From: Nitzschia sp. pyKryTriq1
Taxonomy: Eukaryota; Bacillariophyta; Bacillariophyceae; Bacillariales; Bacillariaceae
Direction: 5' to 3'
DNA: 64,000 nucleotides
NCBI GenBank assembly: GCA_956465555.1
Contig: OY101115.1
Location: 744,001-808,000, forward strand
The notes under the pieces are model-generated. The model had not been told where the DNA came from. It worked only from the letters and a program-made list of their open reading frames with translations, and did no database searches. Shown here piece after piece: positions 43,301-46,268 of the stretch. Position numbers and translations under genes: made by a program. Each line of letters opens with the position of its first letter. Position 1 is the first letter of the stretch.

Positions 43301-46268
43301 ATGGGGGTCGGCCAGCTGCTGTTACTGTGTACTCTTGTATCCGTTGTCATTCCGACGAGTTTGGGGGAAGAAATCACGCCTCGCATCGTAGGCGGTTCCG
43401 CAGCCGGAAGCAACGAATACCCTTACTTCATTAGGTGGGGTGGATGTGGAGCCACCCTCATTCATCCTGACGTTGCCCTTGGAGCAGCTCACGTAAGTAT
43501 CACGGAGAAGGATTCGTGCTGCCTGAACCTACCATTGTTATTGATGTCAGTCTCTAACAATTTTTTAGTGGTAAGTTTTGTCTGCGTCATCAGCTTTCCA
43601 ATTTGCGTCAATTGTCGTGGAAATTTTCTCATGCAAGCATTCATCGTTTCTTCGCAGCTCGGGTGGAAGTGGTGCGCTTCATGTTGGAACGACAGCACGA
43701 GACGCATTGGATGATGGATCAACTGCAGCTACTGTGGTGAAGCGCGTTTCGCATCCAGATTTTGATCGGGGGACGTATGCATATGATTTTGTAGTACTAA
43801 AACTTTCTGGCTGGGTAAGACTATGTGGGTGGAACTGGTGGATTTCTGCCGGCGACAAAATCTCATCGAAGCGCTTATTGTCCCCTCAGATTGATAAGGA
43901 TGTTGTGAGACTGAGCTCTGGGTCACCCTCTGTTGGAGACTCGTTAACAATTGTAGGGTTTGGTCTTACAACAGAAGATGGCAAGAATTCCAATAAATTG
44001 CTCAAAGCCGAAGTGAATTATTTTGATTCAGAGGCTTGTGCTAGCATCTTCGAAGGCGAGAACGAAATTATACCTGAAATCATGTTGTGCGCTGAAGGGT
44101 CAGGTGTGGATGCGTAAGTCATGACAGGGTAAAGTCCACGTTTTATTTGGTTTCATGTGAATCTCAAAGTTCTCCCTTTCAGCTGTAACGGCGATTCTGG
44201 TGGTCCCATTCTCGATAGCTCTGGGAAACAAGTCGGCATAATTTCCTGGGTGAGTTTTCGAGTAGAGATACTATATTTCCCTCGTGTAGTTATGATTGAT
44301 GATTCTGAATATCTGTCTCTTGCGTTTCAGGGAGTGGGTTGTGCTAGGCCTGGCGTTCCAGGAGTCTACTCACGAGTAAGCGGGGCGGACGATTGGATCA
44401 AGGACCAAATTTGTGAGTTGTCAGAGAATCCTCCCAATTCCTGTCCTGATGTTAATGCTCGCGATGGCTTTATCCGCTTAGATGTTTACTATGATATCAA
44501 CCCTACGGATATCAGTTGGATTATCAAAACTGCTGGAGGCCAAGTGATCGAGACATCGAACAGTGTCTCGGAAGAGAACGTCTTGGTTTCCACTTTCATT
44601 GACGTTGCTGATGGCGCCTATGTTTTCGAGATCAGTGATGTTTTTGGAGACGGATTTGAAGATGGTAAGTACCAGTTCATAGAAAAGCTTACCACGGAAG
44701 CATATCTTGCCTAACACTGTCCCTTTGTCATACAGGGGGGAGATTCGAGATGTACTACAATGGAGACAAATTGATCCTAAACGGCGGGGGAGACATCGCC
44801 TATGGTATATCGATTCCTTTTTCCCTCGGTGATGTATCTCCGACCCAGAGTCCAACGGGTAGAGAAACGCCTTCGCCGACTTCTAAACCAACTCTTTCGT
44901 CTGCTCCGACACCAAACCCAACGCCTGCACCGACTCGAAAACCAACCCGGAAACCGACTCGAAAACCAACCAGGGCACCGACTCGAAAACCAACCAGGGC
45001 ACCGACTCGAAAACCAACCCCGACACCGACTCGAAAACCAACCCCGGTACCAACTCCAAAACCAGCCCCGGTGCCAACTCGAAAACCAACCCTAGCACCG
45101 ACGCCCAAAGAAACGTCTGTGCCTACACGGAAACCAGTATCGCCAACCAAACCTCCAACAACAACACCGAAAGAGTCTCCCTCTGAAATACCTGCAGCGA
45201 ATCAAACTCCCGAGCCTACAGATAGTACTACGGCCCGTTCATCTAGGACAGAGCAACCAGCATCCCTGCCGACTTTATCCCCTGTTACCACTTCGTCTGG
45301 TGAACAAAATGATTCTTCGTCGGCGAGGCTGTCCTCTTCTCCGAGTTTGCGTCCCTCGACCGAGCCATCGAGTCGCCCTTCTTCTGGTCCCACGCCACCG
45401 ATCGCTCCCTCTCCACTAGCGAGCTCTTTCGTTCCTACGAAATCTTCACCTGTTCCCTTAGGTGGTTCATCGGGCTACCCAACTATTTCTCCCACAGCGT
45501 TTCCAACGAATCCAATTGAACTGAACGGTCCTCCAGGACCCGGACTGACGGATGAACCTTCGCAACAAGGATCTACGGATCGGATTGAGAACCCCAGTTC
45601 CTTTCCGTCACAGGCTCCAGCAGAGATTCCTGCATCAAGCTTTGCTCTCCATCCTACCCCCGGTCCAAGTATCAAACCCACCACAAAAGTATCCAGTAGT
45701 CCCAGCACTCGGCCGTCAACTGAATTGCCCATCGATTCGCCTCCTAGCGTTACACCGTCTGGTTTCGTCGGTGGTACAAGTACGATTCCGAGCGATTCCC
45801 CAAGTGCAGCTCCATCTCTTACACCCGTGAGTAAACCTCCAACTCGTCTACCCGTGAGCGAGTCTTCAGTGACTTTGATTATGCGACTGGAAATTACCAT
45901 ACTAGCCACACCTGCCGACGTCAGCTTACGGATAGAAGGCCCTGGTGAAAAGGATCAAGCAAAATTCAACAAGGGTTTCTACAAAGAGACAGGTACCATC
46001 AGCCATTATGTCATAGTTTCAGCAGGCGTGCATACTCTCGAATTCGCAAATGAATCTGGAGAAGGCAAGGGTGAGTCAGTTCATCGATATGGTTGGTTCC
46101 TTTTTGTCGCGCTCCCAAATTTGCTCATTTGTTGTGCTTTGCTTTGACTTTCTTTTAGTTGTCGTTACCGCTTATCGCATGAAAGGATCCTTATTTGTAC
46201 CGGTCGGTACGGCAAACCTGGACGGGGACCCGCCGCTGCTTTCTTCTGGTTTCGAAGTGTTCATTTGA
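43301..46268 (+). CDS. Secreted trypsin-like serine protease with Pro/Thr-rich tail
   Basis: Eight exons: 43301-43492, 43569-43570, 43658-43814, 43890-44113, 44183-44249, 44331-44664, 44736-46070, 46159-46268; 806 aa in a continuous frame. Introns are 69-88 bp. A signal peptide (1-22) is followed by a short propeptide with activation site R28|IVGG. The triad is His64 (AAHC), Asp108 (YDFVVLKL) and Ser197 (NGDSGGP); GVYSRV follows. So it is an intact S1 protease. A small beta-rich domain (about 240-350) precedes a long tail of [18 protein letters not shown] repeats (about 355-720) and a C-terminal hydrophobic-strand domain ending SSGFEVFI. The tail may attach it to the wall or matrix. Exon 2 is only 2 nt (TG) and completes the Cys after His64. 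Intron 3 is a multiple of three without a stop and could be retained. Confidence 0.85.
43569..43570 (+). other. Predicted 2-nt microexon (TG)
   Basis: Flanked by TTTTTTAG on the left and GTAAGTTTTG on the right. With it, exon 1 (ending ...GCTCAC, phase 0) joins exon 3 (starting C TCG GGT) as Ala-Ala-His-Cys-Ser, the expected protease sequence. Without it the frame ends at a stop after about 18 codons. The flanking introns are 76 and 87 bp, like others in the gene. Confidence 0.7.
44886..45130 (+). repeat. Coding PTRKPT tandem repeats
   Basis: 12-bp and 24-bp variants of a CCGACTCGAAAACCAACC-like unit encode about a dozen copies of PTRKPT/APTRKPT/VPTPKPA in the protease tail. Basic Arg-Lys pairs alternate with Pro-Thr. 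Confidence 0.85.

Follow-up and report, generated by a model that had tools for sequence, protein, structure and literature searches.

A gene for a trypsin-like S1 protease in the diatom Nitzschia sp. pyKryTriq1 very probably (about 0.9, in our estimate) contains an exon of just two nucleotides, TG, with a short spliceosomal intron of the ordinary kind on either side. Together with the C that opens the following exon, these two bases are, with equally high confidence, predicted to form the codon for Cys58, which adjoins the catalytic His57. The gene lies in the window analysed here, a 64,000-nt stretch of DNA (C1:744001–808000) from a genome that was searched over 40.65 Mb on 20 contigs. In keeping with a diatom, this genome gave eight matches to PF03842, a silicon transporter family that marks diatoms, each of them above the cut-off (best E 6.9e-266). 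Its model extends from the ATG at 43301 to the TGA at 46268 and comprises eight exons with TG counted, which join to a CDS of 2421 nt devoid of internal stops:

43301–43492, plus strand: exon 1, with the ATG, the IVGG mature start, Cys42 (GGCGATL) and, as its 3′ end, the codon of the catalytic His (AAH)
43493–43568, plus strand: intron 1, 76 nt, phase 0, with 5′ GTAAGT, 3′ TTTTTTAG and CTAAC near the 3′ end
43569–43570, plus strand: predicted 2-nt exon TG, bases 1–2 of the Cys58 codon
43571–43657, plus strand: intron 2, 87 nt, phase 2 (TG/C), GTAAGT...TTCTTCGCAG
43658–43814, plus strand: exon 3, starting with base 3 of the Cys codon and carrying the catalytic Asp
43890–44113, plus strand: exon 4 of the gene model
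44183–44249, plus strand: exon 5, carrying the catalytic Ser (GDSGGP)
44331–44664, plus strand: exon 6, in which the protease domain ends
44736–46070, plus strand: exon 7, a long Pro/Thr-rich repeat region
46159–46268, plus strand: exon 8, with TGA as its last codon

The N-terminal part of the encoded protein matches the S1 trypsin family PF00089 across the entire domain (positions 1–220 of 220; 137.4 bits, cut-off 20.6), with a signal-like leader, as judged by eye, in exon 1 and a long Pro/Thr-rich tail C-terminal to the domain. S1 proteases hold their catalytic His, Asp and Ser in characteristic sequence contexts, and translation and alignment to solved trypsins revealed all three in these usual contexts; trypsins were also the nearest solved structures in a structure search with the protein (best E 4.7e-33). 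On the minus strand of the window, open frames at 46840–48130 resemble a BRCT domain such as that in the large subunit of replication factor C, and the frame at 41145–42146 resembles a DUF1499-type protein. Neither an Rfam scan at gathering thresholds nor a tRNA scan of the window returned a match.

The original prediction had placed the end of exon 1 at 43492, after GCA GCT CAC and immediately before GTAAGT, the TG within TTTTTTAG-TG-GTAAGT, and the start of exon 3, CTCGGG, at 43658. The sequence bears all of this out, with TTTTTTAG-TG-GTAAGT beginning at 43561 and CTTCGCAG directly preceding exon 3. TG is thus flanked by AG and GT, and both introns are canonical and, as had been claimed, of a length normal for this gene, the other five introns measuring 75, 69, 81, 71 and 88 nt. 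A consensus branch site, CTAAC, is present in intron 1, its A 12 nt from the intron end. Both the reading frame and a conserved residue require TG: its inclusion yields the uninterrupted CDS that had been foreseen, and a single intron over 43493–43657 (165 nt, TG skipped) shifts the frame, likewise as anticipated, and leads to a stop after residue 82. Computed retention products ended early as well, with stops after residue 65 (AAHW*) when intron 1 is spliced and intron 2 retained, after residue 108 when intron 1 alone is retained, and after residue 137 when both are. Two details of the original wording needed correction. The residue called His64 is indeed the catalytic histidine, 64 being its number in the precursor and His57 its catalytic numbering; and the "active-site His-Cys" does place a Cys, via TG/C, beside the catalytic His, but this Cys is not an active-site residue. 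We take it to be Cys58 by chymotrypsin numbering, which pairs in a disulfide with the Cys42 encoded by exon 1 and has a structural, not a catalytic, role.

The TG model was ranked within a set built from GT or GC donors and AG acceptors located between 43441 and 43720. Introns had to measure 30 nt or more, at most one middle exon was allowed, no longer than 60 nt, and only models open in frame were kept (825, of which 47 contain a single intron). Splice sites were scored with a small model trained on 15 introns of the gene and its sisters (69–120 nt; one, L027a, based on frame alone), both introns at issue being left out. By splice score, the TG model came first of the 825 with 34.2 bits, followed by TG with a different final acceptor (23.3 bits), while the best TG-less model attained 16.1 bits and the best single-intron model 10.9 bits. 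The acceptor of intron 1, at 6.0 bits, belongs to the lower half of what the training introns span (1.1–11.0), and the CTAAC of this intron lies mostly beyond the stretch scored by the splice model. First rank was also obtained on a sister-gene profile (212.1 bits, second 207.5), although this profile of 17 sequences is biased to Cys, as its members all have A[AG]HC (it omits L020, L022, L026 and L028, along with L012 and L017, which have no Cys58). The independent Pfam Trypsin profile gave the TG model 139.8 bits, versus 127.0, 124.7 and 135.6 bits for three alternatives.

The first two of these alternatives invoke only one canonical intron, bounded differently: it either starts at 43493 and finishes with an in-frame AG at 43637 (Pfam 127.0 bits) or runs from a donor at 43546 to the exon start at 43658 (124.7 bits). 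Both remain open in frame, yet their splice scores of −5.6 and 10.9 bits, respectively, fall below that of TG, as do their Pfam scores, and both lose the Cys58 that follows the His while Cys42 stays; the donor at 43546 additionally bypasses a GTAAGT at a position common to sister genes. We therefore regard a single canonical intron as highly unlikely. The third alternative, an intron with non-canonical GT-CA ends spanning 43493–43631, retains Cys58 and scores 135.6 bits with Pfam and 207.9 bits on the sister profile, where it surpasses every canonical alternative to TG. Its acceptor, however, has no AG, it ranks below TG on both profiles and it inserts eight extra residues, so that we give it next to no credence.

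The likelihood of such an exon arising by chance was gauged from 20,000 shuffles of the interior of the 165 nt, in which dinucleotides were kept and the first 6 and last 14 bases (the outer splice sites) fixed. An equally good frame-restoring exon of at most 60 nt appeared in 11 of these 20,000 shuffles, and one opening with a Cys codon in 2. These figures also bear on the suggestion that TG is missing before 43658 through an assembly error or a recent mutation of the strain, the inner AG-TG-GTAAGT being a coincidence: the coincidence needed would occur in ~2 of 20,000 shuffles, the remaining frame is intact and the site is not a homopolymer, making this explanation very improbable.

Pattern searches of the genome were less telling. 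The string GTAAGT-N50..80-TTNYAG-N1..4-GTAAGT matched once, at the TG site, but its backwards control matched six times, and hence the string pattern by itself is not evidence; the case for the TG exon is carried by position, frame and homology. Two further patterns for ultra-short exons hit three places including the TG site (control 32) and seven places (control 8), counts that indicate no enrichment, since the controls, being patterns written backwards, have a different base composition. Inspection by eye of eight of the nine places other than the TG site found none with a two-sided compatible coding context; the place left out, L070, has the same printed match as L068.

The strongest evidence came from the genome itself, in which a profile search with PF00089 yielded 35 matches. 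Three sister genes, L015 (C6:748 kb), L016 (C1:818 kb) and L027 (C12:1010 kb), carry GTAAGT directly after the same His codon, and the exon behind their His/Cys intron starts with TGC, TGC and TGT, respectively; TG thus sits where the Cys codon should begin. Intron 1 of the window gene (phase 0) occupies the same position as these three introns, which measure 89, 71 and 85 nt. The interpretation as a 2-nt exon has accordingly held up on several counts, namely the top rank among the 825 models by splice score and homology, the Pfam comparison and the junction in three sister genes. An intron at TG/C was found in none of the 23 sister sequences compared. L026, L022 and L028 have, by eye, an intron a few codons past the Cys, and coding is uninterrupted at His-Cys in the remaining sequences of the comparison. 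Left out of it were L019, L023 and L025, which we presume to be HtrA-like and whose printed stretch has no recognised His-Cys region, and PF00089 matches lacking a locus of their own (e.g. C3:1091109) received no separate comparison. Cys42 is present in 22 of the 23 sisters and Cys58 in 21 of those 22, L017 having the former without the latter; as exon 1 of the window gene contains Cys42, Cys58 is to be expected. L012 has neither cysteine, as though the disulfide had been lost as a pair. By eye, L027 holds another intron within a Cys codon (1836–1931, TG/T before SGDSGG), one codon away from where intron 4 interrupts the window gene.

In a tree of 20 sequences (L026 and L028 included; L012, L017, L020 and L022 left out), the four genes with the His/Cys intron did not form a clade. 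The tree is poorly resolved, and the 4 changes required on it were matched by a number as low in 500 of 500 shuffles, so shared ancestry of the intron rests on its identical position. L016 and L024 are neighbours at C1:815–818 kb, ~25–28 kb downstream of the gene, and were grouped at 99/97 support. The His/Cys intron is present in L016 and coding is uninterrupted there in L024, which implies an intron loss or gain after their split. The scattering of the four genes on the tree and the uninterrupted L024 together indicate that the His/Cys intron has come or gone more than once.

With respect to the origin of the exon, the sequences of the sister genes make it probable that an older His/Cys intron was already in place when a new intron was gained two bases downstream, at TG/C, leaving the 2-nt exon behind. 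Gain instead of loss is the likeliest direction, because three sister genes share the upstream intron and none of the 23 has the downstream one. A TG likewise precedes three of the 15 training introns, and diatoms are reportedly endowed with many unique intron positions, to go by the title of a 2007 study by Roy and Penny (cited in PMC3488318). A genome search for a second copy of intron 2 recovered intron 2 alone, at the sensitivity of that search, and the best other match within the window extended over 13 bases (E 0.06); an introner family as its source is hence unsupported. Intron 2 resembles intron 1 in nothing except GTAAGT, leaving a tandem duplication of intron 1 unsupported as well. 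Relatives were found neither among the three stretches of viral contigs that matched the search pattern nor among 40 matching stretches of prokaryote genomes.

The 2-nt exon might also be real yet cryptic in origin, with AG-TG-GT inside a longer ancestral intron having been recruited after the start of exon 3 lost two bases. Such a rescue is the route proposed for a 1-nt exon of Fusarium CYP621A (PMC12940212), and an intron 2 with no detectable source fits it. On the other hand, it demands that a Cys-coding exon with good signals arose by chance (the 2 of 20,000 shuffles above), and its 165-nt ancestral intron would exceed all 15 training introns, whereas the sister introns at the site are similar in length to intron 1. 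Recruitment of a cryptic exon needs a rarer coincidence than intron gain, and we consider it unlikely.

Splicing of the TG exon most likely proceeds by intron definition, with the introns removed one by one. The acceptor AG and donor GT lie 2 nt apart, such that both sets of factors could hardly be bound together and sequential removal would be expected. Were intron 1 to leave first, the resulting CACTG-GTAAGT would offer a slightly better donor: that of intron 2 rises from 10.5 bits in the genomic sequence to 11.0 bits once intron 1 is removed, which suggests a slight preference for this order. As an early stop would result from skipping as well as from retention, TG is expected to be included constitutively. 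Apart from its own donor, intron 2 contains none above 1.3 bits (training donors, 8.5–11.5 bits); help from exon definition through a hidden downstream donor is therefore unlikely, and a hidden exon defined by such a donor, as in recursive splicing, was not found.

How the spliceosome recognises exons is put to the test by exons of 1–2 nt, which annotation and read mappers easily miss. Here, sister genes of the same genome suggest a route by which one originated. On balance, we favour the broader view that an intron gained next to an existing one can be all it takes to create the smallest exons, and that this diatom splices both introns reliably by intron definition. One-nucleotide exons are already known from plants and Fusarium, and TG adds a case with an unusually readable origin. 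In the open-licence literature, we found no microexon reports for diatoms or stramenopiles and, judging by titles and the starts of abstracts, no related report worded in terms of two-nucleotide exons. If correct, TG would thus be the first exon below 3 nt described in a stramenopile within that literature, with sister genes displaying the state before the gain. More such exons might be found by looking for frame-breaking introns of about twice the usual length inside conserved motifs.

Several known systems invite comparison. The cox1 gene of placozoan mitochondria reportedly has a 1-bp exon (PMC5436844), which like TG sits at the lower limit of exon size; its introns are said to be mitochondrial and foreign to the nuclear spliceosome, whereas the TG exon is predicted to be nuclear and spliceosomal. 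Ratchet points of recursive splicing in Drosophila, with their cryptic downstream RS-exons (PMC8605326), share with TG an almost juxtaposed acceptor and donor and the expectation of sequential removal. Unlike them, TG is predicted to keep two bases in the mRNA, and its flanking introns of 76 and 87 nt are not long and provide no strong downstream donor. Closer in kind is the 1-nt exon of Fusarium CYP621A, which was confirmed by reads, in a report that also cites exons of 2–5 bp in Arabidopsis, Drosophila and humans (PMC12940212). There, too, an ultra-short exon falls in a codon of a conserved motif and was inferred via the reading frame, an uninterrupted relative and an overlong intron; TG differs in its 2 nt and in that the sisters point to gain beside an older intron instead of rescue of a cryptic exon. 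The 1-nt exons of APC11 and VPS55 are conserved among land plants and were confirmed by RT-PCR sequencing and RNA-seq (PMC4674806, PMC8831610), and for APC11 intron definition with stepwise removal has been proposed (PMC4674806). While TG comprises two nucleotides instead of one and is predicted from the sequence of a single gene, it resembles both plant exons in being too short for exon definition, in having ordinary introns on both sides and in being needed for the reading frame.
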